Positions 5,601-22,493 are shown, numbered from the stretch's first letter. The stretch: DNA of 64,000 nucleotides from Bacteroidota bacterium (GCA_018267915.1 JAFDXN010000031.1:248001-312000), one strand, 5' to 3'. Translations and numbers: made by a program. The notes: generated by a model not told the origin, from the sequence alone.

Positions 5601-5914
5601 CGAGTGCAACCGCAACAGTGCGCTTCGAGGGCTGCCCCTGCAATGTGGTGATACCGACTGCCTTCAGCCCGAACAATGACGGCAGGAACGACAAATTCGG
5701 ACTGACGGTGAGCTGTGCGATCAACAGTTTTAAGCTGATGGTCTATAACCGCTGGGGCAACCAGGTATTTTACAGCGAGGATGTGAACCAGAAGTGGGAT
5801 GGAACAATGAAAGGAATACCGGTGGACGGTGATGTGTTCAACTACTACCTGGAGTTTAAGGATGGGGATAATAAGACTTACAGTTATAAGGGGAATGTGA
5901 CGTTGGTGAGGTAG
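2639..5914 (+). CDS. Secreted repeat protein with gliding-motility-associated C-terminal domain
   Basis: A full-length paralogue (1091 aa) of the gene before it. It starts with a signal peptide (MIKRVLKYCFLLLLFSGIVYG), followed by a propeller-like domain to about residue 375. Nine repeats of ~65 residues follow: seven with YLWSDG/YLWNDG cores and paired cysteines, then two with YLWQDG cores that look Ig-like. A type B T9SS sorting domain of ~94 residues ends the protein. Compared with the upstream copy it has two extra repeat units. Its C-terminal half is almost identical at DNA level to that copy while the N-terminal half is clearly diverged. The start overlaps the upstream stop by 4 bases. 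T9SS export is supported by the terminal domain; adhesion or gliding is inference. Confidence 0.88.
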   Translation: MIKRVLKYCFLLLLFSGIVYGQGENNVWCFGYYCGLDFNNGPPVTHFDSMYSIEGCASVCDFNGNLLFYASPEKAWDRNNNVMPNGNGLLGQSSSTQGAAIIQSFSDPNKYYLFSLESNDAQTGYLYYSLVDMSLNGGLGDIVANQKNIRIDSNMSEKMIVVKGNGCCHWLVLHDRSDHIFHSFKIDYGGINLSPVISNSGFTNSPSFYMFGEMKGSPNDSSLALVNKGSGTIELYSFNAATGSISNAIPLDTFVNSDPYGITYSPDGSKLYTGPYSVGVLHLFQYDMSLLPDIQAVRNSQTIVANIGVHGTRIGPDNKVYIIANTGLAVINSPNLAVPACNFVPNILSFNSPTALKTGLGNSFFPSPVVPVMPQTHDTAVCLGLNIISLPAPSGYNTYLWSDGITTQSDTFSTAGTKWVVSSSFCGVRVDTFHVQSLPIVVSSGITDTTICLVNNIPTLSAQPGYIAYLWSDGKTTQSDTMSQPGTKWAQAQTGCDMLVDTFKLHAMPIASTSVVIDTTVCLVNNVPVFSGPAGNTYLWSDGKAAQTDTMSQPGTKWVQAQTGCNMIVDTFKLHAMAIATTGVVKDTNVCLINNIPILTAEPGYNTYLWSDGKTIQQDSISLPGTKWVQCQTGCTMQVDTFHVHDWRDTTKMVTDTSHCVAYSPIPVVAPGGYTSYLWNDGKIGQADTFFSTSTKWVTALNGCNMLVDTVHFTATTIPQDSVFEHNTDTMICFEAGSVTVNAPGGYTLYLWSDGVNTQSDVFNNAGTKWVYAQKLCYLLIDTFSVLAKPTDTLMGKVDTMTCFSSGTTLSAVQGYDTYLWSDGNAGITDTFSQTSTKRVYAHRACEERIDTFHVQFINDLSVDLGADTAICKGESVQLNATSTYNTARYLWQDGKTSPTYTVTEGGDYSVKVSVGPCSVEDTIRVHQKIIDIKLKDGLIPCHEESVTLDAGVDNASYLWQDGSTQRTYKATKEGSYSVKVTQDECSASATATVRFEGCPCNVVIPTAFSPNNDGRNDKFGLTVSCAINSFKLMVYNRWGNQVFYSEDVNQKWDGTMKGIPVDGDVFNYYLEFKDGDNKTYSYKGNVTLVR

Positions 5915-7295: not shown

Positions 7296-8501
7296 TTAAG
7301 CCTGCAGGATAACGAATGCACCGACGGTGTTATTCGTAACGGGATCTACAAGGATACCGCGGCCATTTTCAGGCAGCGTGGCCGTATGGTCCCATGCCAG
7401 GGCTTTCTGCATACTGATACCGACCCTTGCAAACTGGTTGGCTGTAAGGGGTTCTTTGTCTGAATATTTCTCAAGGGTATCGATATCGACTTTGAACTTT
7501 AAGTCGCTGACGATGCATTCTGTTTCTGCGGTGTTGATGCGCAGGATGTAGGTTTTCTGAAGGTCGAGAGCAGAAGAACTGTCCATCCAGCAAAGGTCGG
7601 CGTCGAAGCTGTCGCTTGTCAAAGGGATATCCCGGGCATGCGAGATGATATCTCCTCTTTTTAGTATAATACCCTCCTGCAGGGTGATGCTGATATTATC
7701 ACCGGCATGAGCTACCTCAACATTATCGTAATTGTGGATGATGTTGCCTATAGTGGCAGCCTGGCCGGACGGGTGGATCAGTATTTTGTCCCCACTATGC
7801 AGGGTGCCTGAAAGTATCTTGCCTGCGAACGTGTTGTCGTCGATCCTGTATTGAAGGCACAATCTCAAGCCTGCATATTGATGCATAGGCGGCTTATAAG
7901 TTTCCAGCAATTCGAGCAAGGCGGGGCCGATGTACCAAGGCGTCTTTGGCGAGAGTGTGATCACGTTATCGCCTTGCAATGCACTGATGGGGATGAATGT
8001 GATATTGTGAAGATCGAGCTTCGCGGCTATTTGCAGGTATTCTTCTTTGATACGCTCATATACATCCTGCGAATAATCGCTAAGGTCCATTTTGTTGATG
8101 GCCACAACCACCTTGCCCAGTTTCAAGAAGGAGGCTACCATCGAATGTCTGCGCGTTTGTGCTGTGATGCCGTTTTGAGCATCTATAAGGATGATCATTA
8201 CATCGACATTGGAGGCACCAGTTACAAGGTTGCGGGTGTACTCGAAATGGCCGGGAGCATCAGTGATGATGAACTTGCGGTGGGAGGTGGAGAAATATTT
8301 ATAGGCTACGTCGATGGTTATTTTCTGTTCGCGTTCAGCCCGGAGCCCATCGGTAACATGTGCCAGGTTGAGGCCTTCATCGCCTGAGATCGTTTCAAGG
8401 ATATCGGATTTAATATTCCCGGTATCGTAGAGCAGCCTGCCGGTCAATGTGCTCTTGCCATCGTCCACGCTGCCTGCTGTTGTGAATCTTAAAATGTCCA
8501 T
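7296..8501 (-). CDS. cysN: Sulfate adenylyltransferase subunit 1 (GTPase)
   Basis: 401 residues, close to the short CysN form of Bacteroidota. CysN is the regulatory GTPase of ATP sulfurylase: it couples GTP hydrolysis to formation of adenosine 5'-phosphosulfate (APS) by CysD. The G1 loop GSVDDGKSTL is at residues 11-20, the G3 motif DAPGH and the G4 motif NKMD follow, and the C-terminal half has EF-Tu-like beta-barrel domains. No APS kinase domain is fused at the C-terminus; that activity is encoded by the gene at 9557. cysN lies downstream of cysD on the same strand, 44 bases apart, in a region containing a TTCAAAAGTCAAAA-type repeat. The neighbours gmd, fcl and a sulfotransferase suggest that the APS feeds PAPS-dependent sulfation. 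Confidence 0.93.
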   Translation of the reverse strand: MDILRFTTAGSVDDGKSTLTGRLLYDTGNIKSDILETISGDEGLNLAHVTDGLRAEREQKITIDVAYKYFSTSHRKFIITDAPGHFEYTRNLVTGASNVDVMIILIDAQNGITAQTRRHSMVASFLKLGKVVVAINKMDLSDYSQDVYERIKEEYLQIAAKLDLHNITFIPISALQGDNVITLSPKTPWYIGPALLELLETYKPPMHQYAGLRLCLQYRIDDNTFAGKILSGTLHSGDKILIHPSGQAATIGNIIHNYDNVEVAHAGDNISITLQEGIILKRGDIISHARDIPLTSDSFDADLCWMDSSSALDLQKTYILRINTAETECIVSDLKFKVDIDTLEKYSDKEPLTANQFARVGISMQKALAWDHTATLPENGRGILVDPVTNNTVGAFVILQA

Positions 8502-8505
8502 TTAA

Positions 8506-8528
8506 TTCAAAAGTCAAAATTCAAAAGC
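8506..8528. repeat. Copy of a dispersed TTCAAAAGTCAAAA-type intergenic repeat
   Basis: An A-rich sequence in the cysD-cysN gap, similar to copies near 27098, 30486-30577 and 33598-33698. Confidence 0.5.
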
Positions 8529-8545
8529 AAAAAGTCTCCATGCCA

Positions 8546-9439
8546 TTAGAAATATCCTTTCAATTTCCTGTCTTCCATAGCGGCATCGGATATTTGATCG
8601 TCGATGCGGGTGGCGCCTCGCTCGCTGATGGGTGAAGCCTCAATTTCGGCTATTATATCATCCACAGTTTGCGCCTGCGATTCGATGGCTGCCGTGCATG
8701 TCATGTCGCCCACGGTGCGGTAGCGTACTGTAGTATTCACCACCTCATCGTTGATATCGGGTGTCACGTATTCAGACACTGCCACCCATCGGCCCTGGAA
8801 AACGATGCAATCGCGCTTGTGGGCAAAATAGATGGATGGCAGCGCGATATGCTCGCGTTTGATGTATTGCCAAATGTCGAGTTCCGTCCAGTTGCTGATG
8901 GGGAACGCCCTGACATTTTCGCCCTCCCTGATCCTGCCATTGTACAGGTCCCAAAGCTCCGGGCGCTGGTTGTGTGGCTGCCAGGCGCCTGAGGGGTCGC
9001 GGAAGGAGAAGATGCGTTCTTTGGCCCTGGCTTTTTCCTCATCGCGGCGGCCACCGCCTATGCAGGCGTCGAAGCCAAATTCCCTGATCGCATCCATAAG
9101 GGTGTAAGACTGCAGCGCATTGCGGCTGGGAAATTTCCCTTGCGGGTCCGGCAGGTTCTTTTCCCGAATGGTATCTTCTACTTTTCGCACTATCAGCTGC
9201 GCATTTATTTTTTCTACCAGCGCATTGCGGAACCGAAGCGCCTCCGGGAAGTTGTGGCCCGTATCGATATGCATTACAGGGAAGGGCAGCGGTGCGGGAT
9301 AGAACGCTTTAAGCGCCAGGTGAATGAGCACTGTAGAGTCTTTACCCCCCGAGAAGAGCAGTACAGGTCTTTTAAATTGACCTGCCACCTCGCGGAATAT
9401 ATAGATAGCTTCAGCTTCGAGGATGTCCAGGTAATTCAT
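8546..9439 (-). CDS. cysD: Sulfate adenylyltransferase subunit 2
   Basis: CysD is the catalytic ATP-pyrophosphatase-type subunit of ATP sulfurylase; it makes APS from ATP and sulfate together with CysN. The PP-loop SGGKDST is at residues 30-36 and the family signatures GGRRDEEKARAKER and FPISNWTELDIWQYI are present. The frame also allows a TTG start at 9457, but the ATG at 9439 (MNYLDILEAEAI) matches the usual CysD N-terminus and is chosen; length is then 297 residues. It is transcribed divergently from cysC, whose ATG is 117 bases away, so the intergenic space may hold promoters for both arms of the island. Confidence 0.94.
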   Translation of the reverse strand: MNYLDILEAEAIYIFREVAGQFKRPVLLFSGGKDSTVLIHLALKAFYPAPLPFPVMHIDTGHNFPEALRFRNALVEKINAQLIVRKVEDTIREKNLPDPQGKFPSRNALQSYTLMDAIREFGFDACIGGGRRDEEKARAKERIFSFRDPSGAWQPHNQRPELWDLYNGRIREGENVRAFPISNWTELDIWQYIKREHIALPSIYFAHKRDCIVFQGRWVAVSEYVTPDINDEVVNTTVRYRTVGDMTCTAAIESQAQTVDDIIAEIEASPISERGATRIDDQISDAAMEDRKLKGYF

Positions 9440-9556
9440 TGTTCGAAAAGCGTGCAAAAGCGGATAAATGCTCTATTTTTATGTGATTGTAAAGATAATA
9501 CAATAGGCTTTAACGGATTGTAGGGCGCGCAGGCCTGTTAAATAGGATAAATAATA

Positions 9557-10300
9557 ATGATTGTACAGTTTTGTGGTCTTTCAGGAGCAGGAAAGTCGAC
9601 CTTATCGGGTAAGGTAAGGGATATATTGCTTGAAAAGGGCTACGATGTGGAGGTAATAGATGGTGACGAGTACCGGAAGAACGTGTGCAAAGACCTGGGC
9701 TTCAGCAAGGAAGACAGGAAAGAAAATATCCGCAGGCTGGCCTTTATAGGCAGTAAGTTCTCAGCGCATGGGGTCATTGTCTTTCTCTCTGCCATTAATC
9801 CATATGATGATGTGCGGCGCGAAGTAGCGGCAGCCTATCCGCACGTGAAAACGGTGTTCGTAGACTGCAGCCTGGAGGAGTTGATGAAACGGGACACGAA
9901 GGGCCTTTATAAAAAGGCGATGCTGCCGGAAGGGCACCCGGAACGGGTGAACAACCTGACCGGAGTCAATGACCCTTTCGACCGGCCGGAGGCGCCGGAT
10001 CTGCTGATAGAGTCGCACAAGGTGAGCGAGGAAGCAGCAACGAAAATGCTGGCCGACTTTATCATTACGCACTTGCCGGGTCATACACGCAACTACAGGC
10101 GGAAGGAAAGCCACAAAAGGAGTATTATGAAAGCGATATCTTACCGGTTACTGGGCAGCCTGGCTACCATTGCGATATCCTATGTGTTTACAAAAAAGGC
10201 CGATATTGCTCTAGGCATAGGAGGATTGGACCTGGTGAGCAAGATAGTGCTGTATTACCTGCATGAGCGGGTATGGCACAACATAAAATACGTTGAGTAA
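9557..10300 (+). CDS. cysC: Adenylylsulfate kinase fused to a DUF2061 membrane domain
   Basis: Residues 1-~178 are APS kinase, which phosphorylates APS to PAPS, the universal sulfate donor: P-loop GLSGAGKST (7-15), [16 protein letters not shown], and the NPYDDVRR segment. Residues ~187-247 form a DUF2061 domain ([20 protein letters not shown] and [20 protein letters not shown]), a small two-helix membrane domain that often occurs near sulfur-activation genes. The fusion would place PAPS synthesis at the inner face of the membrane, near the sulfotransferase or an envelope glycan; that is inference. It begins a run of tightly spaced genes: gmd starts 5 bases after its stop. Confidence 0.9.
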
Positions 10301-10305
10301 AAGAA

Positions 10306-11382
10306 ATGAAGACCGCATTAATAACGGGCATTACCGGGCAGGACGGGGCCTATCTTACGGAGCTGTTGCTCGGTAAGGGCTACGAGGTACATGGCATCAA
10401 GCGCCGCACATCGCTTATCAATACCCACCGTATCGACCACCTGTACGAAGGCCCGCAGCTGGAAGACAGGCAGATGATCATGCACTATGGCGACATGACC
10501 GATTCGTCGAACCTCATTGCCCTGGTGCAGAAGATACAGCCCGACGAGATATACAACCTCGCTGCCATGAGCCACGTGCTGGCCAGCTTCGATCTGCCGG
10601 AATATGTAGCCAATGTGAACGGGCTGGGTACGCTAAGGTTGCTGGAGGCGATCCGCCTGCTGGGACTGGAGCAAAAAACGAAATTTTACCAGGCCTCGAC
10701 ATCGGAACTCTTTGGCAGGGCCACCGGTGAAAAGCAAAATGAACAGACCCTCTTCTATCCACGATCACCATACGGAGTAGCGAAACTCTACGCGCACTGG
10801 ATAACGGTGAACTACAGGGAGGCCTATAATATTTTCGCCTGTAACGGTATCCTGTTCAACCATGAGAGCCCGGTGAGGGGTGAAACATTTGTAACAAGGA
10901 AAATAACACGCGGCATCGCCAAAATAATAGTGGGCCTGGAAGATAAGTTATGGCTGGGCAACCTGAACGCACAGCGCGATTGGGGGCACTCGAAAGACTA
11001 CGTAAGGGCGATGTGGATGATGATGCAGCAGCCGGTGCCCGACGACTATGTTATAGCGACCGGTATTACAACATCGGTGAGGGATTTTGTGACCAAGGCC
11101 TTTGCCTGTGCCGGAGTTGAAATTGCTTTTGAGGGGCACGGAGAGGACGAAGTAGCTATCGTAACTAAGGTACTGAATGACGCCTGCCGCCTGTCGGTAG
11201 GTGATGAAGTAGTAGCCGTGGATAAAAGGTACTTCAGGCCAACCGAGGTGGATACACTGATAGGCGACGCCACAAAAGCAAAGCAAAAACTTGGCTGGGA
11301 GCCTGTATATACACTTGACGAAATAATAAAGGAAATGCTGGAGGCTGATATGGAGAATGTGCACAAAAAGCAGGTGATATAA
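10306..11382 (+). CDS. gmd: GDP-mannose 4,6-dehydratase
   Basis: 358 residues, normal for the family. Converts GDP-D-mannose to GDP-4-keto-6-deoxymannose, the first step to GDP-L-fucose. Short-chain dehydrogenase Rossmann motif [10 protein letters not shown] at the N-terminus, an NLAAMSHV segment, and the catalytic YxxxK in [12 protein letters not shown]; the [20 protein letters not shown] signature typical of Gmd is present. The stop and the next start share one base (TAATG), so gmd and fcl are translationally coupled and supply the same nucleotide sugar. Confidence 0.96.
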
Positions 11383-12320
11383 TGCAGGCAAACAGTAAAA
11401 TATATGTAGCCGGGCACACAGGCATGGTAGGGTCGGCCATAGTGCGGGCATTGAAGCAGCAGGGTTTTAATAACCTGGTCACTTGTCCGTCGGAGGAGCT
11501 GAACCTTTGCCGCCAGCAGGAAGCCGAAGACTTCTTTGATACTGAAAAGCCGGACTACGTATTCGTAGCAGCTGCCAGGGTCGGGGGCATACACGCCAAC
11601 AGCGTTTACAAAGCGCAGTTCCTTTACGAGAATTTGACGATCGCGGCTAATACGATTCATGCGGCGTATAAATCGGGTGTAAAAAAATTACTTTATCTCG
11701 GCAGCTCCTGCATATACCCCAAGTTTGCCGGGCAGCCTATCAAGGAGGAATATTTACTGACAGGTGCACTGGAACCTACCAACGAAGGTTATGCGTTGGC
11801 CAAGATCGCGGGTATCAAGCTGTGCGAAACCTACTGCGACCAATATGGCTGCAATTTCATAGCTGCCATGCCCTGTAGCATCTACGGCTATGGCGACAAT
11901 TACCACAACCAGAATGCGCATGTAATACCCATGCTGATGCGAAAATTTCACGAAGCTAAGATCATGAATAGTCCTGAAGTAACACTTTGGGGCACCGGCA
12001 CACCGCTACGCGAGTTCATGTTCGTCGACGACCTGGCAGATGCCTGCTTGTTCCTGATGCAGGGTTTCGACGAGCAGCTTTTTATAAATGTGGGGACCGG
12101 AGAAGAAATATCCATAGCCGGGCTGGCGGAACTGATGAAAGATGTTACCGGCTACGAAGGTAAGCTACGCTTCGACACAACGATGCCCGACGGCACACCC
12201 CGCAAGCTCCTCGACAGCAGCAGGTTGCATGCCTTGGGCTGGCAGCACAAAACAAGCCTCGAGGAGGGGCTTAGGAAGGCCTATAAACAATTCACAGAAG
12301 CAACTGTAAGAGAAAAATAA
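11382..12320 (+). CDS. fcl: GDP-L-fucose synthase
   Basis: 312 residues, typical length. Epimerises and reduces GDP-4-keto-6-deoxymannose to GDP-L-fucose with NADPH. N-terminal Rossmann motif GHTGMVGSA (residues 8-16), the [10 protein letters not shown] segment, the SSCIYP motif and YxxxK in [10 protein letters not shown] match Fcl/WcaG. It overlaps gmd and the sulfotransferase gene by one base on each side, so the three enzymes are very probably made together. With gmd it makes GDP-fucose for a fucose-containing glycan. Confidence 0.96.
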
Positions 12321-13192
12321 TGGATACCCCTTTAGGATATAATACGGGCAACCTGTACAACGACAAACTGGTTCCTCCTGTCGGCAGCTATTTCCACCTT
12401 ACCTGGCGCTGGCGAATGGATCCCAGCTTTTTTATCATGGGAGTGCAGAAAGGAGGCACGTCAACGCTGTGCTACTACATGGTGCAACACCCCCAGGTAA
12501 TAACGCCACAGAACAAGGATGTTTTCTTTTTTAATAACACACTGAACTACAATAAAGGGATCAAATGGTATAAAGCGCATTTCGCGCTGAAAGCTTATAA
12601 GCTGTACCATGAACTTAAAAAAGGTTCGAAGAATGCCGTAACATTTGATGGCACTCCCGACTATTTCGATGTTGCGGAAGCGCCTGAAAGACTCTATAAG
12701 CATTACCCGAACGGTAAGCTTATCCTGCTCTTAAGAAACCCCATACACCGCGCGTACTCCTGTTACCAGTCATCGAAGCGCTTTGGTTTTGAGAACCTGA
12801 GCTTCGAAGCGGCGATGGAACTGGAAGAGCAGCGGTTGCAGGACGAGAGCAAATATGCACCCATGCACCCTTATCATAGTTACGTGCATGAGCGCCTTAC
12901 CTGCAAAAAAAGGGGCAGATACATTCTCTATATCAAAAAATGGAAGGAACTATTTGGAGACAATCTCCTCGTGCTCAAAACCGAAGACCTTGCAGAGCAC
13001 ACGCAGGAGCAACTGGACATTATACTGGATTTCCTTGGTCTCGATCCCTATAAAAACTTTGACCTGACCAAGCAAAACCTGGGCAACTACTCGGGCATGA
13101 AGCCTGAAACTTACCGCATGCTAAGGGAATACTATGAGCCCTACAATCAGCAACTCTATGAATATCTTGGCCGTGATTTTGGTTGGGACTAA
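12320..13192 (+). CDS. PAPS-dependent sulfotransferase
   Basis: 290 residues with a single sulfotransferase domain. The 5'-phosphosulfate loop GVQKGGTSTL is at residues 41-50 and the 3'-phosphate-binding segment LLLRNPIHRAYSCYQSSKR at about 130-150, the two PAPS contacts expected in this superfamily. There is no signal peptide or membrane segment, so it should act in the cytoplasm on a lipid-linked or nucleotide-activated glycan intermediate. The one-base overlap with fcl and the nearby APS/PAPS genes make a sulfated, probably fucose-containing, polysaccharide or lipid-linked oligosaccharide the most plausible product. Acceptor and linkage cannot be read from sequence. It ends 4 bases inside the convergent gene. 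Confidence 0.85.
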   Translation: MDTPLGYNTGNLYNDKLVPPVGSYFHLTWRWRMDPSFFIMGVQKGGTSTLCYYMVQHPQVITPQNKDVFFFNNTLNYNKGIKWYKAHFALKAYKLYHELKKGSKNAVTFDGTPDYFDVAEAPERLYKHYPNGKLILLLRNPIHRAYSCYQSSKRFGFENLSFEAAMELEEQRLQDESKYAPMHPYHSYVHERLTCKKRGRYILYIKKWKELFGDNLLVLKTEDLAEHTQEQLDIILDFLGLDPYKNFDLTKQNLGNYSGMKPETYRMLREYYEPYNQQLYEYLGRDFGWD

Positions 13193-14130
13193 TCTACGAA
13201 GAAGAACTTGATCAGTACTTCAAGGAAGCGGTTCCTGAGATCAGGATGATAGCCGCTGTCATCAATACGTTTGGTCCTTTTGAAGCCGCGACGCTTGTCT
13301 GCTTTGAAATTGGTGGGATAGTGCAGTGTGGGGTTCATCAGCCAGATAAAATGGCGCATCAGAAAGGGCTCCCACGACCAAGGCAGTTTGGCGGCATCTA
13401 AATGGGGTTCCAGTTCCCCGACCAACTCATAAAACAGGTCGTAGTTATACTTAATGATACGTTGGTTAGCCCATCCGTTATTCAGCTCCATACCCAGGTG
13501 AAAGGTCAGGTGCTTATCCAGCATCAATACCGGTTTTTCGGCAAAAGTGAACATGTTATAAAACAGGTCATTACCAAAAGGCGGGGCACCAATACAGATA
13601 TCTTTCTTTATGAATTTTGGCCAAAGCTCGCGCTTGAATACGAAAGTATCGTACCCAGAGTGCGACTTGCCCGATTCGGCATACATCAGGTCGAGGTCGG
13701 TCTCGTGAAGGAACTTATTATAAAGGCGCCTGCGGTTAATGACGATCGCGTCGTGGCCCTCGTTGATATATTTTTCTACGACCGTATAAAAAAAAGGCAT
13801 CATAGTGATATCGAGGGCGGTGTAGATTAGATATTCTGCTGTAGAGTTATCATACAGCGTCTGCATAATATCTGTAATGAAGGGGAATTTGAATTTTTCG
13901 CCCTGCAGCACATGTGTGAGATTGCGGGTAAGCGGAGGTAATTGGGTAAACTCAGCGGGAACAAAGCTGTTGTTAGCCCTCTCGTTTATGGTATATAAGG
14001 AAACGTCATTTGGCCTCCCGAAATACTCCCGGGCCCTGATGCAGGAGTTGAAAGTAACAGCCTGTGCAATGAAAAGGTTTTTCTTTTCATCTTCAGTTAC
14101 AGGATTGATCACGTGGGCAAAAGAAGCCAT
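13189..14130 (-). CDS. Unrecognised protein, possibly a glycosyltransferase of the polysaccharide locus
   Basis: 313 residues, soluble, no signal peptide. I do not recognise the family. The middle part has features of a GT-A fold: a hydrophobic strand ending in an acidic residue (AEYLIYTALDITMMPFFY), a later basic segment (AIVINRRRLY) and a conserved-looking HSGYDTFVFKREL segment, as in enzymes that read a nucleotide-sugar. It lies between the sulfotransferase and the Dlt-like operon on the opposite strand, so a role in the same surface glycan is possible. Its 3' end overlaps the sulfotransferase stop by 4 bases. Confidence 0.55.
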   Translation of the reverse strand: MASFAHVINPVTEDEKKNLFIAQAVTFNSCIRAREYFGRPNDVSLYTINERANNSFVPAEFTQLPPLTRNLTHVLQGEKFKFPFITDIMQTLYDNSTAEYLIYTALDITMMPFFYTVVEKYINEGHDAIVINRRRLYNKFLHETDLDLMYAESGKSHSGYDTFVFKRELWPKFIKKDICIGAPPFGNDLFYNMFTFAEKPVLMLDKHLTFHLGMELNNGWANQRIIKYNYDLFYELVGELEPHLDAAKLPWSWEPFLMRHFIWLMNPTLHYPTNFKADKRRGFKRTKRIDDSGYHPDLRNRFLEVLIKFFFVD

Positions 14131-14253: not shown

Positions 14254-16725
14254 GTGTTCCAAAACTTGTTCCCTGAAATAACTGTTGAGAAACAGCATGC
14301 TAAAGCTCCGTTGACCTATGTAGTGATGTATAGCCTGGTGTTTCTTGCAGTGATGTATGTGCTCAAGACCCTCAATATCGCGGCTTCATCCGGCATCACC
14401 GATCTAACAATTATTTTCATCCCCGGTTTCGTTATTCATTCGCTGGCCCCGGTGAGGTACCGGCCTTTTATTTACTGTCTCATTTTTATTGCCAGCCTTT
14501 TTTATGTGTTTAGCTGGCTAACAGCAGTTATCATCATTTTCTTTCTTTCCATAACAGCGTATGTGATCTACAGCGGCCACAAGCTGTGGTTGAAATATTT
14601 ATATCTCATACTACTGGGTATTGCTTTTGTGTTCTTGCGGAATTCCTTTCTGCTCCGCATGCCAAGGCTGAATATGAGCATACCGTTCGTTGCGGCCATA
14701 CTTATGTTTCGTGTCATCATACTGATGTATGAAGTAAAGCACAACAAGCTGCCGGAGAACCGCTGGCTGAAGCTCTCCTACTTTTTTTGCTTTCCTAACC
14801 TTGCCTTCCTCTTTTACCCCATCATAGATTACAAGACCTATATGAGGGGATACCTTGCGGAGCCCTTTGAGACGTTGTGCAATAAGGCACTGTGGTATAT
14901 GATATCCGGTATCATGTTCCTTAGCGTGTATAAGATACTAGGCTTTTACCTCGATGTATCCTTCATGGAGGTGCATGACATTACGGGACTTATCGTGTAC
15001 ATGTTTTCCAAGTACATCCTGGTCTTTAAAATGATCGGGTTGTTGACCCTTGGCCTGAGTTTTCTCTGCATGTTCGGCTTCAATATGCCTATGCTTTTCG
15101 GCAACTTTTTTGTGGTTACATCATTCAACCACTACTGGCAACGGGTTAATATTTATTGGAAGGATTTTATCGTTAAGATCATTTACTACCCGTTATACTT
15201 CAGGTACCGGAAAAAATTGAAAAGCGCCACGGCCTTGCTGGTATTTGTCGCGGTGCTATCGTCATGGTTTTTCCATATGTACCAGCAGTTCTGGATATCG
15301 GGGCTGGTATTTTCCCGCACACAGGATTTTCTTTATTGGTTGATACTGGCCATCCTGGTGGCCGCCAATGTGCACCTTGATACCAAAGCGCCCAAAAAGA
15401 AAAAAGAAGACATGACAATGGCGCAGTGCATCGTGATGGGCATACGTTTCGTTATCGTGTTCGGCACTATGCTGGTTTGCTGGGTGCTCTGGAACTCGGA
15501 CGATGTGTCAAGCTTCAGCTACGTTATGTCGCGCGGCTGGCATGCCAGTGCGCAGCAGGTGCTGTCGGTCGTTACCTGTCTCGTTTTGATCATTACCTGT
15601 TTTGCCCTTTACCTGCGTATCAGCAGTAAAAAGGCGCTGGTGGTGCAGGCGCAAACACGTAGTCGCACGGTATTTTCACTAGTCATGTTGTGCCTGCTAT
15701 GTATCGTCAGCATTTTCAAACCTCAACTTGAAAAGAACCAATTGGTAGCCATCATATCATCGAAGAACGAAACCAACCGGGACGAGCGGAACAAAAAAGA
15801 GATCAACTATTACTCAGCCGTTACAGGAGTAAAGAATGACTGGGAAGTGGGTTTGTCCTGGGGAGATAACCGCACGATATTCGGGCAAATAGGCTCATTT
15901 TCCAACGACCTGATATTCCAGGAACTGAAGCCCAACCAGCACACTACGTTTAAAGGACAGGAAGTGATCTCGAATAACTATGGACTGAGGGACAAGGACT
16001 ATCCGCTGGTGAAAGGCCCGGGAACTTACCGGATCGCTTTGTTGGGAGGATCATATGAGATGGGTTCGGGTGTTGCAGGTAAGGACGTTTATGAGCAACT
16101 GGTGGAAGACAGCCTCAATAAACATCTCGGTGGTCACCCGAAGATAGAGATCATCAATTTCGGCATGGGCTCCTTTACCACGGTTCCCCAAATGGAGCTG
16201 CTGCGGACCAAAGTGCTCAAATTTCATCCTGATGAGGTAATAGAAGTATATCATACCGATGAGCTATCGCGCGCCACACGTTTTTTTGCGAGATACATCA
16301 GCAATGGGGTGGACCTGAAATATGATTACCTCCTGGACGTTAAAGCCAGGTCGGGCGTAAAACAGTCGATGAGTAACGAGGAAATAATCGCCAGGTTGAA
16401 CCCGTATATGCGCGATATCACCGTTTGGTGTTATCAGCAGATGGATTCCATTTGTAAGGCCAACCACTTTAAAGAAGTGGCGATATTCCTGCCCAGCACC
16501 AATGATTTGTTTACAGAAGAAAAGGTGAATGACTGGAAGGATATGTTAAAAGGTACTGGTTTTGAGCCATTTGTGCTACGTAACGTGTATGACGGGTATG
16601 AACATAGCAAGATCGCGGTGTCGGATGAGGACCCGCATCCTAATACGTTGGGGCATCACTTAATTGCAAATAAATTATTTAATTTGCTCACAGATTCAAC
16701 TACTCATATAATTCCGCTAAAGTGA
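14254..16725 (+). CDS. MBOAT acyltransferase fused to an SGNH-hydrolase-like domain (DltB+DltD-like)
   Basis: 823 residues, GTG start. Residues ~20-490 are polytopic. FNHYWQRVNIYWKDF (291-305) followed by YYPLYFRYRKK matches the FWRRWHISLS...YIPL block of AlgI/DltB-type MBOAT enzymes; H341 (in SSWFFHMYQQFW) occupies the place of the WHG histidine, and WVLWNS (~410) fits the later WVFFRA block. Residues ~590-823 are SGNH-like: block I LLGGSYEMGSG with Ser600, and a C-terminal DPHPNTLGHHL block. MBOAT proteins move acyl groups across or at the membrane, in DltB from a carrier protein. The stop overlaps the carrier-protein start (GTGA). Fusion of the two activities parallels DltB plus DltD. Acceptor unknown; an exopolysaccharide or envelope glycan is inferred. 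Confidence 0.75.
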   Translation: MFQNLFPEITVEKQHAKAPLTYVVMYSLVFLAVMYVLKTLNIAASSGITDLTIIFIPGFVIHSLAPVRYRPFIYCLIFIASLFYVFSWLTAVIIIFFLSITAYVIYSGHKLWLKYLYLILLGIAFVFLRNSFLLRMPRLNMSIPFVAAILMFRVIILMYEVKHNKLPENRWLKLSYFFCFPNLAFLFYPIIDYKTYMRGYLAEPFETLCNKALWYMISGIMFLSVYKILGFYLDVSFMEVHDITGLIVYMFSKYILVFKMIGLLTLGLSFLCMFGFNMPMLFGNFFVVTSFNHYWQRVNIYWKDFIVKIIYYPLYFRYRKKLKSATALLVFVAVLSSWFFHMYQQFWISGLVFSRTQDFLYWLILAILVAANVHLDTKAPKKKKEDMTMAQCIVMGIRFVIVFGTMLVCWVLWNSDDVSSFSYVMSRGWHASAQQVLSVVTCLVLIITCFALYLRISSKKALVVQAQTRSRTVFSLVMLCLLCIVSIFKPQLEKNQLVAIISSKNETNRDERNKKEINYYSAVTGVKNDWEVGLSWGDNRTIFGQIGSFSNDLIFQELKPNQHTTFKGQEVISNNYGLRDKDYPLVKGPGTYRIALLGGSYEMGSGVAGKDVYEQLVEDSLNKHLGGHPKIEIINFGMGSFTTVPQMELLRTKVLKFHPDEVIEVYHTDELSRATRFFARYISNGVDLKYDYLLDVKARSGVKQSMSNEEIIARLNPYMRDITVWCYQQMDSICKANHFKEVAIFLPSTNDLFTEEKVNDWKDMLKGTGFEPFVLRNVYDGYEHSKIAVSDEDPHPNTLGHHLIANKLFNLLTDSTTHIIPLK

Positions 16726-16985
16726 ACAAACAGGAACTAAAGAACGCCGTTAGAAATTATGTTACCGCAGAGGTATTCAGCGGCACCATGCCAGAGGGCT
16801 TTAATGACGATACGAAGATCATATCTACACGCCTGATGGATTCGATCGTGACACTTAACATGGTGAACCATTTTGAGGAGCGTCTTGGCATCCAGCTTCA
16901 GGCCCACGATGTGAGCGTAGATAACCTCGATTCGGTGAATATGATCAGCAGTTTCCTTTCTACAAAGGCTGGTTTAAGCGAATAG
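16722..16985 (+). CDS. Acyl/peptidyl carrier protein (DltC-like)
   Basis: 87 residues, the size of a free carrier protein. Ser41 in RLMDSIVTL is the expected 4'-phosphopantetheine attachment site; helix 2 and the acidic surface fit the PCP/DltC fold. A GTG start overlaps the stop of the MBOAT-SGNH gene, and the adenylation gene begins 6 bases after its stop, so a dedicated partner role is likely: the adenylation enzyme would load it, the dehydrogenase and flavoenzyme would act on the bound group, and the MBOAT enzyme would unload it. It is too short for the fatty-acid AcpP role to be excluded by sequence alone, but the context argues against that. Confidence 0.88.
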   Translation: MNKQELKNAVRNYVTAEVFSGTMPEGFNDDTKIISTRLMDSIVTLNMVNHFEERLGIQLQAHDVSVDNLDSVNMISSFLSTKAGLSE

Positions 16986-16991
16986 GTTTTG

Positions 16992-18467
16992 ATGCGGCTT
17001 GATGAAATAATAAATGCCTGTATAAAACAGGGAGATGCTCAGCAAGCGCTAAAGGACACTTCAGGAAATTCAAGGTCATACCTGCAGTTGCAGGACGAGA
17101 TAGCAGCTCACGTGCTGCAAATCAGTTCGCGCTTACAAAGCGACAAAAAGAACGTGCTTGCGATAGTAAGCGAACGCAATATTTTCCTGCCCGCTTTGCT
17201 TTATGCGGTTGTGAACAGCGGTGCGGCTTATGTGCCCATAGACCACCGCTTTCCCGCCGAAAGAATAAGCACCATTGTGAATGAAGCGAGGCCTAACGCA
17301 GCGATAGTGCAGAATAAGTACAGGGAAATTTTTGAATCTGCATGCGACTGTGAAATAGCCAGCTCCCTGGCGCTGAGCGAAGAACATACATTATTGGTGC
17401 TGGCGCAGGAACCCGTCGGGATTCCGGCAGACGCAGTCTACATATTATACACTTCCGGGTCAACAGGCGTCCCCAAAGGAGCGATACATACGCATAGCAG
17501 CGTAGTGAGCTTTCTACAGTGGTGCAGCGACGCTATCGACTGTAGCGATGCCAGCACTTTTATTTCCATATCGCCACTGCAATTTGATCTTTCCGTTTTC
17601 GACCTGTTTTTCCCTCTTTTCAGGACCGGGACGCTGCTTTTGGTAAAGGAGGCTGAACTGGCCAATCACCGCATGTTGGCGCAGATCATCGCGGGGCAGG
17701 GAGTGAACTGCGTATATGCAACACCGTCTTTCTTCCGGCTTTTATGCACCGGGGGCAAGCTGCAGCAATATAGCTTTGATCATGTAAGTCACTTGTTGCT
17801 CGCCGGCGAGGCGCTGCAATGGCAGTTGCTGCACGACATGAAACCCTATTTTACTAAGGCCCAGTGTTACAATCTATATGGGCCTACCGAAACAAATGTG
17901 TGCTGCTATTATAAAGTAAATGAGGCTGACGAAAGGCTTTACCCCGTAGCAGTTCCCATCGGTAAGCCATGCGGTGAAACAAAGATCCACCTTGAGGCCA
18001 GCGACGATCCGTCGATGCCGGAGCTTTGGGTAGCCGGAGGAACGCTGATGCATGGCTATGTTGCAGGGCCTGCCTCATTCCGGATGCTTGACGACGTACG
18101 CTATTATAACACCGGTGATCTCGTGCAACAGGAAGCAGACGGCAACCTGGTATTTTGCGGTCGCCGCGATAGAATGATCAAAAAAAACGGCTTCAGGGTA
18201 GAACCTGCAGAAGTAGAGAAGTACATCAGGCAGCTTGAAGGTGTGCATAATGCTGTCGCCGCGCCGGTGGTGGTGAAAAATTCAATGAAACTTGTTATCT
18301 TTATACAGTCGGATAAAGTCTATAACCTGTTGGAAATTAAGCAATACTGCCTAAGTAAGCTTCCATACTACATGGTGCCCGACGACGTGATAATGGTACA
18401 GGATCTGCCTCTCAATCTGAACAATAAAACCGATATAGGTCAACTGGTCGATAACTATGTTAAGTAA
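16992..18467 (+). CDS. Free-standing amino acid adenylation enzyme, predicted prolyl-carrier ligase
   Basis: 491 residues, an AMP-forming adenylation domain without fused carrier or condensation domain, like DltA or PltF. A3 motif YTSGSTGVPKG (153-163), A5 LYGPTET (295-301), A7 YNTGD (372-376), A8 GRRDRMIKKNGFRVEP, A10 Lys479. Aligning by eye to the GrsA pocket gives D199, L200, F203, Y242, L269, A271, L295, V303, C304, K479 (D-L-F-Y-L-A-L-V-C-K). This resembles what I recall for free-standing prolyl adenylases of pyrrole pathways and is unlike a D-alanine pocket; it needs a database check. A TTG at 16989 precedes the ATG at 16992; the ATG is chosen. It overlaps the next gene by 11 bases. Confidence 0.82.
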   Translation: MRLDEIINACIKQGDAQQALKDTSGNSRSYLQLQDEIAAHVLQISSRLQSDKKNVLAIVSERNIFLPALLYAVVNSGAAYVPIDHRFPAERISTIVNEARPNAAIVQNKYREIFESACDCEIASSLALSEEHTLLVLAQEPVGIPADAVYILYTSGSTGVPKGAIHTHSSVVSFLQWCSDAIDCSDASTFISISPLQFDLSVFDLFFPLFRTGTLLLVKEAELANHRMLAQIIAGQGVNCVYATPSFFRLLCTGGKLQQYSFDHVSHLLLAGEALQWQLLHDMKPYFTKAQCYNLYGPTETNVCCYYKVNEADERLYPVAVPIGKPCGETKIHLEASDDPSMPELWVAGGTLMHGYVAGPASFRMLDDVRYYNTGDLVQQEADGNLVFCGRRDRMIKKNGFRVEPAEVEKYIRQLEGVHNAVAAPVVVKNSMKLVIFIQSDKVYNLLEIKQYCLSKLPYYMVPDDVIMVQDLPLNLNNKTDIGQLVDNYVK

Positions 18468-19608
18468 GGCACTGCCCGATTATAAGGCTATCTATGACGC
18501 ATACTTCTCTTTTGCGCAGCAGCACTTCAGCGCCGCGGACATGGTGCATGCTGATCGCGAAGGCATTTTCAACGATACGCTTTGGCATAAAGCCGGCGAA
18601 ATGTCGCTGCATGGCTTGCCTGTTGATGAGGCATCGGGTGGGCGCGGTTATAGTGCCATGCAAAGCTGTGCAGCCATCGAAGGCTTTGCAAAAGGCTGCA
18701 CCGACAACGGGCTTACTTTTTCGATCCTCGCCCATGCCGCTGCCAGTACTGTTCCGTTGTACCTGCATGGCAGCGACGGGCAGAGGAGAGAATTGCTGCC
18801 ACTATTAGCGCAGGGCAAAGTGATCACCTGCAACGCGATCACGGAAGCGGGTTCCGGTTCAAATGTATACGAAATGTCCACCCTCGCCGAAAGAACGGCG
18901 GACGGATACACAATAAAGGGCGGCAAATGCTACATCACAAACGCCCCTGTGTCCGACTACGTACTGTTATATTGTATGACAGATGTGACGAAAGGATTTT
19001 TCGGTGGCGTAAGTGCTTTCATCCTCCCGGCTGATACGGATGGGCTGCAGCGCGGCCCGGTAAAGAGTAAAATGGGGCTCCGCACCGTGCATATGTCCGA
19101 AATAATGCTCGACAATGTTGCCGCGGCCGAAGCTCAGCTATTGGGCAAGGAGGGTGCAGGCGCAGTGATTTTTAACGAAAGCATGGTATGGGAGAAGACG
19201 ATGATGTGCGCCATGAACCTGGGCCAGCTTGAACGGGTGTACGAAAATACACTGGCCTTCTGCAAAAAACGCAAACTGAAAGGCAAGGCACTCCTGAACC
19301 TGACCAATATAGCTCACGACATGGCCGATGTAAAGGTCGCTATTAACGCGGCACGCGGTCTGGTATATGATGCCGCCTGTGCCATTGACATGCGCGCGAA
19401 GGACGCACTGCAAAGATCATCTGTCGCCAAATGTTTTGTGACAGAAAATGCAGTAAAATGCATACAGAAAATGCAGGTGATCTACGGTGGTGCCGGTTAC
19501 CTGGCTGAAAACAATATAGAGCGTGAATACCGGGATATGTATGCGGCATTGCTTTACTCCGGCACTGCCGATATACAGCGTAATATAATTATAGGACATT
19601 CAAACTGA
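18457..19608 (+). CDS. Acyl-CoA-dehydrogenase-family flavoenzyme, predicted carrier-bound prolyl oxidase
   Basis: 383 residues with the whole acyl-CoA dehydrogenase fold: N-terminal helical part, TEAGSGSNVYEM flavin/substrate segment (~129-140), and a C-terminal helical domain with VIYGGAGYLAENNIEREYRD. The usual catalytic glutamate of the C-terminal loop (YEGT in MCAD) is Ser368 in LYSGT, but Glu246 (MVWEKTMM) sits in the helix used by isovaleryl-CoA dehydrogenase. In PltE/RedW-type enzymes this family oxidises carrier-bound proline to pyrrole-2-carboxyl. The position next to a carrier protein and a predicted prolyl adenylase makes that the leading hypothesis; an ordinary branched acyl-CoA dehydrogenase is the alternative. 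Confidence 0.8.
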   Translation: MLSKALPDYKAIYDAYFSFAQQHFSAADMVHADREGIFNDTLWHKAGEMSLHGLPVDEASGGRGYSAMQSCAAIEGFAKGCTDNGLTFSILAHAAASTVPLYLHGSDGQRRELLPLLAQGKVITCNAITEAGSGSNVYEMSTLAERTADGYTIKGGKCYITNAPVSDYVLLYCMTDVTKGFFGGVSAFILPADTDGLQRGPVKSKMGLRTVHMSEIMLDNVAAAEAQLLGKEGAGAVIFNESMVWEKTMMCAMNLGQLERVYENTLAFCKKRKLKGKALLNLTNIAHDMADVKVAINAARGLVYDAACAIDMRAKDALQRSSVAKCFVTENAVKCIQKMQVIYGGAGYLAENNIEREYRDMYAALLYSGTADIQRNIIIGHSN

Positions 19609-19614
19609 TGACGA

Positions 19615-21069
19615 ATGGAAGGGAACAGTAAATTGTACGATTTTATTATTATCGGGTGTGGCCCTACCGGTGCTGCGGCTGCTACTTACCTGACGCGCCT
19701 GGGCTATTCTGTAATGGTCTTTGAGCGCACGAAGTTTCCGCGCCAGCACGAGGGCGAATCTTTGCTGCCCTTTTGCTACCCGCTTTTCAAGGAACTGGGT
19801 GTATATGAGGAAATGAAGACCAAATTTGTAAAGAAGCCGGGTGTGCGTTTCCTCAATTATACCGACACCGCGAGTGCAACATATTGTTTTCAGAATATCA
19901 TTTCCGATGAAAGTAAATTGTCCTTTCACGTGCTGCGCTCCGAGTTCGACCTGATGCTGATGAACAACGCCATTAAGAACGGTGCGGAAGTAATGCAGGA
20001 AACGAAAGTGGAAAAGGTGGACCTGCAGCGGCCGGACAAGATAGTGGATGTGGTAACCGTTGACACCGCGGGTAACAGGACAGAGTGGAAAGCAAAGTTT
20101 TTGATAGATGCCAGCGGCCAGGATACCTTCCTGGCAAAACGCTCGGGTGCTAAGACAGCCTATAAAGAACTAGACAGGACCGCATTCCTCACACATTGGG
20201 AGGACGGTGCTTACACTGATGGTATAGATGTTGGCTTGCTGCAACTCGTATACCTGAATGATAAAAAAAGCGGATGGTTCGGCATACAGCCTATTGGTAA
20301 AAACAGGCTTAGCGTGGGCCTTGTTATCAACAGGCAATACCTGAAGGAGCAAAAGAAATTATTGCTTGATAAGGGCGTCAAAGATTGGCAGATGGCCTTC
20401 TACCGGCAGGAGGTGGAGGAGTGTGCTTTTACAAAAAAAATACTTGCAGATGCACGGATTGTACAACCCTTGCTGATCGTCTCTGACTACTCTTATTACA
20501 CTGATAAGCCTTGGGGAGACAACTATGCACTGCTGGGCGATGCCGGCAAGTTCCTTGATCCGATATTCGCGTCGGGTGTGTACCTAGGTATGAACAGCGC
20601 CAAGATGTTTGCAGAGGCAATACATACTAAACTGTCGCTCGACGTTAATGCCGGTGATGCGCATCTGGAAAATGCCTATAAACATATCACGGGCGCTTAC
20701 GACCTGGTTGAGAAGTTCGTGCACATCTTCTACGATCCTAATTCCTTCAATCTTGCAGAGGTGGACCCGAGCTCCGAATCGAAGTATAAGAATTATGAGA
20801 CAGCCTTCTCGCTGGTACATTACCTGCTGGCGGGAGACTTCTTCAACAATTATGACAAATACTCCGGTTTCCTGGATATGCTTAGAAATCCCGATCAGTT
20901 CCAGCGCTGGAAGAGCCTGCTGCAAAGCAGGCCCAGCAAGAACAATGCTACCTGCGACAGCAGCTACAACGAGATCTTTGGTGACATAATTGATGCACTT
21001 GTGCCGCCTCCTCCCGGCTTACAGGAGCAGAGCGAGCTTATTTTAAAGGGTGCGGGCAACGAAGCTTAA
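19615..21069 (+). CDS. FAD-dependent monooxygenase of the flavin halogenase family (halogenation uncertain)
   Basis: 484 residues. GxGxxG FAD motif IIIGCGPTGAA at 11-21, an RQHEGESLLP segment (43-52) and GDAGKFLDPIFASG (308-321) match PltA-like flavin-dependent halogenases, in which the flavin makes hypohalous acid and a lysine guides it. A lysine pair (K73-K74, VKKPG) is present near the expected site. The halogenase signature WxWxIP is degenerate: W221 is followed by F-G-I-Q-P, so the second Trp and the Ile are missing. It may halogenate the carrier-bound ring, hydroxylate it, or do another oxidation. It starts 6 bases after the dehydrogenase stop and converges on the next gene with a 4-base overlap. 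Confidence 0.78.
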   Translation: MEGNSKLYDFIIIGCGPTGAAAATYLTRLGYSVMVFERTKFPRQHEGESLLPFCYPLFKELGVYEEMKTKFVKKPGVRFLNYTDTASATYCFQNIISDESKLSFHVLRSEFDLMLMNNAIKNGAEVMQETKVEKVDLQRPDKIVDVVTVDTAGNRTEWKAKFLIDASGQDTFLAKRSGAKTAYKELDRTAFLTHWEDGAYTDGIDVGLLQLVYLNDKKSGWFGIQPIGKNRLSVGLVINRQYLKEQKKLLLDKGVKDWQMAFYRQEVEECAFTKKILADARIVQPLLIVSDYSYYTDKPWGDNYALLGDAGKFLDPIFASGVYLGMNSAKMFAEAIHTKLSLDVNAGDAHLENAYKHITGAYDLVEKFVHIFYDPNSFNLAEVDPSSESKYKNYETAFSLVHYLLAGDFFNNYDKYSGFLDMLRNPDQFQRWKSLLQSRPSKNNATCDSSYNEIFGDIIDALVPPPPGLQEQSELILKGAGNEA

Positions 21070-21494
21070 TCGTTAAGCGGTACCGGTGGTGTAAGATATC
21101 CCTCTGCGGAGCGCTGACGGCCGATCTTTTCATATATCTCAGGGTCATCCGGGGCTATCGTAGCAAGCCCGTCCACGTACCTGTTGAACATGCAGAATAT
21201 AGCGGCGATAAGCACGGTGTCGTGTATCTCCTTTTCGCTCGCACCTTTTGATTTAGCATGATCAATATCTGCAGTGCTCACCAGTTTGCCATCCTGTTGC
21301 ACTTTCGCGGCTATGCGCAATAGCGCTTTCAGTTTGTCGCTGATGTCGGCGTTTTCCGGGTCTTGCTGCACCTGCTTTACCAGCTCCGGCTTATCGCCCA
21401 GCTGAAACCTTGCTATCGATGCATGCGTAGTAGCGCAATATTTACAGGTATTGAGTGTCGATACGTAGGTAGCTATCAGTTCGCGCTCACCTAC
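21066..21494 (-). pseudogene. Truncated carboxymuconolactone decarboxylase / AhpD-family gene
   Basis: Read on the minus strand, an open frame runs from about 21494 to the stop at 21066 and contains GERELIATYVSTLNTCKYC, with the CxxC of AhpD-like peroxidase/decarboxylase-fold proteins, then THASIARFQLGD and a second helical half. The N-terminal ~50-60 residues usual for this family are missing: upstream of the GERE residues the frame runs into sequence that on the other strand encodes dnaE2 and ends at a stop within ~25 bases. No ATG exists before the CxxC; the first start, a GTG at 21371, lies after it. So the gene is 5' truncated at the junction at ~21490. Confidence 0.75.
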
Positions 21495-22493
21495 CCGGAT
21501 GTGTTTGCTGCGGCATTATTGAACAGCCAGCCAATGGGTTTTTACCAGCCGGCACAGATAGTGGGCGATGCGAAAAAGCATGAAGTAGAAGTGCTGCCTG
21601 TGGATATTAATTATTCGCACTGGGATAATACACTTGAAGAAAAAACGGAGCAGCAAAGATATTGCCCGCTGCGATTGGGTTTCCGGCAGGTGAAAGGACT
21701 GAGAGAAGAGGATATGATGATACTGCTTGCGGGGCGCGAAAAGGCGTTTAAGAACATCAATCAGTTGCGGGATATCGGTGTTTCACCGACAGCGCTTGAG
21801 CGACTGGCCGACGCAGATGCCTTCCGGTCGATAGGGCTGGACAGAAGACAGGCACTTTGGGAAGTCTCGGCATTGAATGATCTGCCCAACGGGATGTTTA
21901 CAGGACAATCGGCTGCGAAGACCTCGGAGCAGGAAATACAACTACCCGACATGCGCCTGTCGGAACATGTGCTGCATGATTACAGTGCCTTGTCACTTTC
22001 CCTGAAGGCGCACCCGGTAAACTTTGTGCGCGGGCAACTGGATGCCCTTAACGTATCGGCGACAAGCAGGCTGTTGGAAAAAGGAGATGGTGCTTACGTA
22101 AAGGTAGCAGGCCTGGTATTGGTGCGGCAAAGGCCGGGTACTGCTTCGGGCATCTGCTTTATTACCATTGAAGATGAAACCGGCAGTGCTAACCTGGTGG
22201 TGTTTGAAAAGCTTTTTGAACAATACCGCAAAGAGATATTGTACTCGAGACTCCTGATGGTGGAGGGTACGCTACAGGTAGAAAAGGAGGTGGTGCATGT
22301 GATCGTGAATCGCTGCCATAACCTGACAGGCCTGATCAGCAGGCTGACAGAAGTAGAGATAAAAGACCCGCCCGTACAGACCTTATCCCGGGCGGATGAG
22401 AGGGATGGAGATGCAAAGACGCCTATAAAAGATGCCAGGGTGCTAAAGGTGGTGCAGGGCGAGATATTCCACGGGGGAAGAAACTTCAGGTAG
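21490..22493 (+). pseudogene. dnaE2: 5'-truncated error-prone DNA polymerase III alpha subunit (DnaE2/ImuC)
   Basis: From about 21490 the frame matches only the C-terminal third of DnaE2: AAALLNSQPMGFYQPAQIV, then LPVDINYSHWDNTLE, a helix-hairpin region and an OB-fold with GLVLVRQRPGTASGICFITI, ending in HGGRNFR. Full-length DnaE2 is about 1050 residues; here ~335 remain and the catalytic palm and PHP domains are gone. The open frame extends left to 21363, but those codons are antisense to the AhpD-family gene and do not resemble DnaE2. DnaE2 is the translesion polymerase of the ImuA-ImuB-DnaE2 mutasome; imuA and imuB are not in the window. A non-functional remnant, or one side of an assembly chimera. 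Confidence 0.82.

Follow-up and report, generated by a model that had tools for sequence, protein, structure and literature searches.

A Dlt-like operon of a Bacteroidota bacterium predicted to transfer oxidised proline to exported glycans

The operon

Five tightly packed open reading frames (ORFs), all on the + strand, occupy positions 14254-21069 of a 64,000-nucleotide stretch of a Bacteroidota bacterium (GCA_018267915.1, JAFDXN010000031.1:248001-312000), hereafter called the window, whose positions are counted from its first letter. We consider it likely that they encode a carrier-dependent surface-acylation machine, which would convert carrier-bound proline to pyrrole-2-carboxylate (or pyrroline) by oxidation and attach the product to an exported glycan. 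An earlier note, made from the sequence alone, had proposed such a surface-acylation system. The analysis agrees with it on the folds, the proline pocket, the probable oxidase class, the carrier logic and the gene order, and gives no support to halogenation in this organism. The operon comprises the following features:

14254..16725, + strand: MBOAT-SGNH fusion, 823 amino acids, GTG start; predicted transmembrane acyltransferase with an extracytoplasmic SGNH transferase domain
15808..15813, + strand: codons of Tyr519-Tyr520, candidate for an acyl-Tyr shuttle, on the linker that joins the last transmembrane helix to the SGNH domain
16722..16985, + strand: carrier protein, 87 amino acids; phosphopantetheine Ser41, codon 16842-16844
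16989..18467, + strand: stand-alone adenylation enzyme, predicted L-proline--carrier ligase; alternative ATG start at 16992
18457..19608, + strand: flavoenzyme of the acyl-CoA-dehydrogenase fold, predicted prolyl-carrier oxidase; Glu246, codon 19192-19194
19615..21069, + strand: flavin-dependent halogenase-family enzyme; GWFGIQP at codons 20272-20292 in place of GWxWxIP

The start of gene 2 (16722) lies inside the stop region of gene 1 (end at 16725), genes 2 and 3 are 3 bases apart, genes 3 and 4 overlap by 11 bases and genes 4 and 5 are separated by 6 bases. Pfam detects AMP-binding in gene 3 (1e-54), three acyl-CoA dehydrogenase domains in gene 4 (1e-29 to 1e-17), and Trp_halogenase (6e-19) and FAD_binding_3 (4e-15) in gene 5. 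All five ORFs and families announced by the note were recovered, the carrier through a weak match and the fusion through its predicted fold. The operon is found in three of the five species of the genus, in the same order and with one, two or three tandem flavoenzymes; the conservation of gene order expected in other Bacteroidota is therefore observed in two further species. Since this order is shared and since the first four genes are grouped repeatedly in many phyla, the operon is not a chance arrangement.

The MBOAT-SGNH fusion protein

The fusion has no usable match in Pfam or NCBIfam. A search of the genome with the MBOAT profile PF03062 found nothing, and the MBOAT identity therefore rests on the predicted fold. 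An AlphaFold2 model obtained from 59 homologues is confident (predicted local distance difference test, pLDDT, 88.7; predicted template modelling score, pTM, 0.86). Comparison of this model with known structures assigns residues 42-426 to the DltB fold (8jem, Z 20.6, 360 of 417 residues) and residues 534-812 to the SGNH fold (8a2n, Z 20.6; TesA, Z about 15). One confident model hence holds both the DltB-like and the SGNH domains, with a Z of 20.6 for each half, as expected if DltB and DltD parts were fused. Because both folds are matched by the model while a PDB sequence-profile search recovers the SGNH half only, we take the fusion to be real and, judging from the model, its MBOAT half to be highly diverged.

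Alignment with three homologues reveals an MBOAT-like signature, TSF..W.R.NIYWK.F..K..YYP.YF (W338/H341), and SGNH-like signatures (GGS at 600 and D793-x-H795). H341, S600, D793 and H795 are invariant in all 59 fusion homologues. The order of the transmembrane helices and two basic loops (319-324 and 379-388) fit an SGNH domain located outside the cytoplasm.

Tyr519 and Tyr520 are also present in all 59 homologues, within a GYY motif that is mostly GYYE. They are located after two extra transmembrane helices beyond the MBOAT core and just before the SGNH domain, in a segment (residues 519-540) that is flexible in the model. The GYYE linker is absent at that place in 13 stand-alone SGNH relatives, and the packed operon contains no separate small DltX-like ORF. 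In the Dlt system, DltC hands the acyl group through DltB to a DltX Tyr (motif FXYXXF), from which DltD receives it; in PatA, this motif is located on two additional C-terminal transmembrane helices (PMC12148441). By analogy with the Tyr of DltX and PatA, the Tyr-Tyr pair of the linker is a candidate acyl shuttle.

The PatA/PatB, AlgI/AlgJ/AlgX and WssH/WssI systems share with the fusion the MBOAT His, the SGNH Ser, two extra transmembrane helices followed by a conserved Tyr, although within another motif, and an extracytoplasmic transfer to polymer hydroxyls, which is predicted here. However, they consist of separate proteins and use acetyl-CoA, whereas here a single fused protein would receive a carrier-bound oxidised amino acid. 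The AT3-SGNH fusions of the OatA type also combine a transmembrane acyltransferase with an SGNH domain in one protein and involve an acyl-Tyr step, but they have the AT3 fold instead of the MBOAT fold and acetyl-CoA as donor.

The donor genes

Pfam matches the carrier only weakly to PP-binding (E=0.011); its modified Ser belongs to an MDS motif. This motif is DS in 63 of 64 homologues and NS in the remaining one, Ser being present in all 64. The carrier scores below the DltC cut-off (21.2 bits vs 68), and its weak best PDB matches are prolyl carriers (the acyl carrier protein of Bmp1, PltL and others).

The pocket code of the adenylation enzyme, read against GrsA positions, is DLFYLALVC, i.e. 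one residue away from that of PltF (DLLYLALVC, from the 6o6e alignment). Among PDB entries, the pocket region matches PltF best, before DltA structures, and nearly all homologues have the PltF code or close variants of it. The proline-type pocket put forward by the note thus proves to be PltF-like. An assignment as DltA was considered and rejected: NCBIfam scores are of the DltA or nonribosomal peptide synthetase (NRPS) type, yet well under the DltA cut-offs (245.4 bits vs 476 for PRK04813; 236.2 vs 559.85 for TIGR01734), and the pocket is of the PltF type.

In NCBIfam, the dehydrogenase scores best with PigA (326.6 bits), followed by RedW (275.5 bits), the next family reaching 188.9; the same two models come first for all ten diverse members scanned, with scores of up to 474.6. 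Its top PDB matches are 4irn, 6cxt and 5zw0 (a prolyl-peptidyl carrier protein dehydrogenase), the first two of which we take to be AnaB and Bmp3. All are prolyl-carrier oxidases and precede any acyl-CoA dehydrogenase. The enzyme keeps the Glu (Glu246) of the WER/WEK motif. By both NCBIfam and PDB matches, it is probably of the prolyl-carrier-oxidase class, in line with the PltE-type pathways invoked beforehand.

Together with the DltB-fold MBOAT and SGNH domains, the adenylation enzyme and the carrier with its invariant Ser bear out the Dlt-like, carrier-dependent logic. Indeed, the teichoic-acid D-alanylation system (DltA, DltC, DltB, DltD, DltX) likewise groups in one operon a stand-alone amino-acid adenylation enzyme, a small carrier, a DltB-fold MBOAT and an SGNH transferase, with a carrier thioester as donor. 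It differs in that here the DltB and DltD parts are fused, that an invariant GYYE linker stands in place of DltX and FXYXXF, that a proline code and a predicted carrier-bound oxidation are added, and that the hosts are Gram-negative bacteria and other phyla, with glycan and sulfation neighbours.

The cassettes PltF/PltL/PltE, PigI/PigG/PigA, Bmp4/Bmp1/Bmp3 and CloN4/N5/N3 have the same proline code and carrier, a prolyl-carrier oxidase, as predicted here, and sometimes a flavin halogenase. In these cassettes the pyrrole goes to polyketide, prodigiosin, bromopyrrole or aminocoumarin assembly, whereas here the sole acceptor gene encodes a transmembrane MBOAT-SGNH acyltransferase.

Distribution of the module and coevolution of its genes

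Two short patterns, run against 84,980 species genomes, yielded 209 relatives of the fusion, the best 80 of which were analysed, their phyla being assigned by hand on the basis of record titles. These 80 loci belong to at least 11 phyla; within 10 kb, they include a carrier in 60 cases, an adenylation enzyme in 46, a dehydrogenase in 39 and all three in 36. Furthermore, a Pro-code adenylation enzyme is encoded elsewhere in 17 of 29 genomes that lack one at the MBOAT locus, mostly with a carrier and a dehydrogenase beside it. Complete modules are carried by cultured bacteria, i.e. Mesorhizobium spp., Methylomonas sp. SURF-2, Pseudothauera rhizosphaerae and Paraglaciecola arctica. A search of a plasmid collection gave only one match, unannotated, in Microvirga.

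Among 395 sampled Bacteroidota genomes, the fusion was found in four and a PigA-like dehydrogenase in five in addition to that of the window. Excluding the window, the dehydrogenase is present in all three other fusion-bearing genomes vs 2 of the 391 fusion-less ones (hypergeometric P about 1e-6). In one single-contig Bacteroidota genome, the fusion and the dehydrogenase are 2.9 Mb apart. In the two genomes that have the dehydrogenase and no fusion, it lies beside NRPS-sized ORFs with different codes. Moreover, the trees of MBOAT, adenylation enzyme and dehydrogenase are congruent over 36 loci (r 0.84-0.89; none of 999 permutations as high), a congruence to which shared species history contributes.

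These data bear on whether the fusion could be an ordinary O-acetyltransferase using acetyl-CoA or another acyl-CoA, its closeness to a proline/pyrrole pathway being incidental. Acetyl-CoA is the donor of most described MBOAT/SGNH pairs (PMC12148441), and 20 of the 80 loci have no carrier detected nearby. However, co-occurrence even when unlinked, the congruent trees, the tight gene overlaps in the window and the carrier found at the 60 other loci make this explanation very unlikely, all the more so since donor swaps lead to other carrier-loading ligases. The incidental neighbourhood was rejected on the basis of the unlinked co-occurrence of fusion and donor genes.

In L037, L065, L071 and L088, a fatty-acyl-AMP ligase (FAAL) with the code DMVWWANGA or DWVYCGVSV lies beside the fusion (three of the four were scanned against NCBIfam). 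As FAAL-type ligases replace the proline ligase at these four loci, carrier-loading donors appear to be exchangeable, which suggests fatty-acyl donors for the same transfer chassis. Rhodothermaceae MAG.022 (L025, L036, L090) carries at least five MBOAT-SGNH paralogues, three of them in tandem in L025, but a single donor module, which suggests that one donor might serve several acceptors.

A derived halogenase-family flavoenzyme

The flavoenzyme encoded by the fifth gene is CmlS-like in NCBIfam (191.8 bits) and belongs to the CmlS/CndH/PltA/Bmp2 family. Like the flavin-dependent halogenases CmlS, CndH, PltA, Mpy16 and Bmp2, with which it shares its fold, it keeps GxGxxG (as GCGPTG) and the lysine of the KPG region: its FVKKPG, whose Lys presumably corresponds to K71 of CmlS, aligns with YVKKPS of the latter. 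Unlike them, it lacks WxWxIP, replaced by GWFGIQP. This motif is altered in both same-genus species too, and Ala takes the place of the FxxPxxSxG Ser in the first copy. In the tree, a clade that is sister to the canonical copies and has lost the second Trp groups the window copy with every same-genus copy and with the first one of L051; the motif of its members is GWF(G/A)xQP or similar. Other module-adjacent members keep WxWxIP (copies of L147, L150 and L073 and second copy of L051), as GWIWAIP or GWIWMIP (L147 and L150) or GWCWMIP.

As WxWxIP is lost, halogenation was rejected as the principal reading for this genome, and the possible halogenation of proline mentioned in the note finds no support in the window or its two relatives. 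The window enzyme is expected to catalyse an altered reaction, be it hydroxylation or another flavin-based one, or no reaction at all; halogenation is plausible for the module relatives that have WxWxIP. A surface tag made of pyrrole that the fifth enzyme would chlorinate or brominate on the carrier before transfer is thus quite improbable here: family membership, the KPG lysine and the canonical motifs of module-adjacent relatives speak for it, but the altered motifs of the genus speak against it, as does the presence of a halogenase-family gene with the module at only 10 of the 80 loci, most module-bearing phyla having none.

Tandem copies of halogenase-family genes, two or three in number, are found in L018 (14763-17815), L019 (15370-20328) and L051 (14909-17723), vs only one in the window; in L051, a canonical copy is adjacent to a motif-altered one.

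Genomic context and nature of the acceptor

The region upstream of the operon encodes:

7296..9457, - strand: cysN (GTP_EFTU 4e-41) and cysD (PAPS_reduct 4e-43), sulfate adenylyltransferase
9557..12320, + strand: cysC (adenosine 5'-phosphosulfate kinase, APS_kinase 5e-42), gmd (GDP_Man_Dehyd 3e-144) and fcl (Epimerase 2.8e-61)
12320..13192, + strand: sulfotransferase (Pfam Sulfotransfer_1 1.8e-15)
13189..14130, - strand: orphan protein of 313 amino acids

The supply of both 3'-phosphoadenosine 5'-phosphosulfate (cysD, cysN, cysC) and GDP-L-fucose (gmd, fcl) is thus encoded upstream of the operon, and cysC, gmd and fcl are kept upstream in L018 and L019. The sulfotransferase, the orphan protein and the operon are jointly present in three of the five genomes of the genus and jointly absent from the two others. 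The orphan has no match in Pfam, NCBIfam or PDB and its model has a pLDDT of 32; we do not claim a glycosyltransferase role for it. In G056, four genes or domains of sulfotransferases lie next to the fusion, along with glycosyltransferases and the ATPase of an ABC exporter; in L051, a galactose-3-O-sulfotransferase and a family 2 glycosyltransferase are present. Across phyla, group 1 glycosyltransferases account for 13 of 206 neighbours vs about 0.4% genome-wide (about 4.4 per Mb), i.e. a ~14-fold enrichment, the baseline being drawn from genomes that overlap the neighbour set and are not identical to it. Because of the sulfation and fucose neighbours, the contexts in G056 and L051 and this enrichment, the acceptor is most likely a surface polysaccharide or exopolysaccharide. 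To our knowledge, Bacteroidota lack teichoic acids.

In L030, a sulfatase gene (12342-13745) follows the MBOAT-SGNH gene, the donor genes of that genome being located on another contig (L150); this again links the system to sulfated glycans.

The module might instead produce a small secreted molecule, such as a pyrrole ester or glycoside acting as an antibiotic or signal, with the MBOAT-SGNH protein esterifying a lipid or small glycoside during export. The donor genes are indeed those of antibiotic pathways (PltF/PltL/PltE, Bmp, Pig), module neighbours differ between phyla, and clorobiocin and coumermycin contain sugar pyrrole esters. However, known small-molecule pyrrolyl transfers are cytoplasmic, and the window contains no polyketide synthase, NRPS or cytoplasmic acceptor genes beside the module, in agreement with the note, which saw no polyketide acceptor. 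Ketoacyl synthases represent only 2 of 95 neighbours in set A3, in contrast to the enriched glycosyltransferases, and neither they nor condensation domains are among the 25 commonest neighbour families of set A4. Furthermore, in Bacteroidota the genes travel with sulfotransferases, and the sole two genomes with the dehydrogenase and no fusion are the NRPS contexts described above. A small secreted product is therefore quite unlikely.

Other genes of the window flank these regions. The gene of a small protein related to carboxymuconolactone decarboxylases/peroxidases (21066-21371, - strand) converges with the flavoenzyme gene, their 3' ends sharing 4 bases. At the downstream edge of the operon, a 376-amino-acid ORF (21363-22493) resembles only the C-terminal part of the error-prone polymerase DnaE2/ImuC (HHH_6 and OB domain), as would a remnant left by truncation. 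Two large proteins encoded upstream of the sulfate-activation genes (15-5914) carry CHU_C type IX secretion signals.

Proposed mechanism

Starting from the folds, pocket code, enzyme subclass, co-occurrence and invariant residues established by computation, we infer the pyrrole or pyrroline chemistry, the product and the acceptor as follows. The adenylation enzyme would activate L-proline and load it onto the phosphopantetheine arm of the carrier, and the flavin dehydrogenase would oxidise the resulting thioester to its pyrrole-2-carboxyl (or 1-pyrroline-carboxyl) form. Through His341, the MBOAT half would then carry the acyl group across the membrane, probably first to Tyr519 or Tyr520 of the linker. 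By analogy with related systems, this acyl-Tyr could pass the group to Ser600 of the SGNH half (Ser600-Asp793-His795), which would transfer it to a hydroxyl of the exported glycan; in the present case, this glycan is probably a sulfated polysaccharide that contains fucose. The derived halogenase-family flavoenzyme of this genus may oxidise the ring further.

Several observations weigh against this scheme. The linker motif GYYE differs from the known FXYXXF. Neither a glycosyltransferase nor an exporter of a known family is encoded beside the operon within the window. At about 31 of the 80 loci, the adenylation enzyme and the dehydrogenase are both missing from the vicinity, and four have a FAAL, so that the fusion is not tied to one donor. 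The dehydrogenase is under the curated cut-offs (326.6 vs 500 for PigA; 275.5 vs 650 for RedW), and AnaB, among its closest solved relatives, is a two-electron enzyme that stops at pyrroline. The same machine could therefore transfer only a prolyl or 1-pyrroline-carboxyl group, i.e. an amino acid or a cyclic imine resulting from at most a two-electron oxidation. AnaB being the top PDB match favours this, and Dlt likewise carries an amino acid (D-alanyl). However, we regard it as unlikely, since the profiles that match best, PigA and RedW, represent four-electron, pyrrole-forming enzymes, Bmp3 is almost as similar to the dehydrogenase as AnaB, and the canonical halogenase-family genes located by the module in L147, L150 and L051 are best explained by an aromatic ring. 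No usable determinants of two- vs four-electron oxidation were found in the literature. Oxidation to a pyrrole (or pyrroline) followed by transfer to an exported glycan remains the reading that we favour.

Significance

We found no description of such a system in the open-access literature, subscription journals being outside the scope of the search, which makes this weak evidence; within that literature, the note's remark that it knew of no described system with this combination stands. Each part has a known counterpart, and we rate as new the donor chemistry, the fused architecture and the breadth. On balance, we think that the module represents a cross-phylum envelope modification, in which an MBOAT-SGNH protein with a built-in Tyr shuttle would export thiotemplate-made pyrrole-2-carboxyl, perhaps halogenated or further oxidised in some lineages, from a carrier to surface polysaccharides or exopolysaccharides, with exchangeable donors (proline/pyrrole or, by way of FAAL, fatty-acyl).

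Far from being a local curiosity, the four-gene core is widespread, and the cultured strains that carry the module make the proposal directly testable. If true, it would account for a protein family missed by the Pfam and NCBIfam models and would join Dlt and MBOAT-SGNH envelope acylation with thiotemplate pyrrole biosynthesis. The groups known on surface glycans include acetyl, succinyl, pyruvyl, glycyl and alanyl; decoration with an aromatic heterocycle, built by carrier chemistry of the antibiotic type, would be novel in kind. Such a pyrrole decoration would have redox, metal-binding, ultraviolet-absorbing or cross-linking potential.

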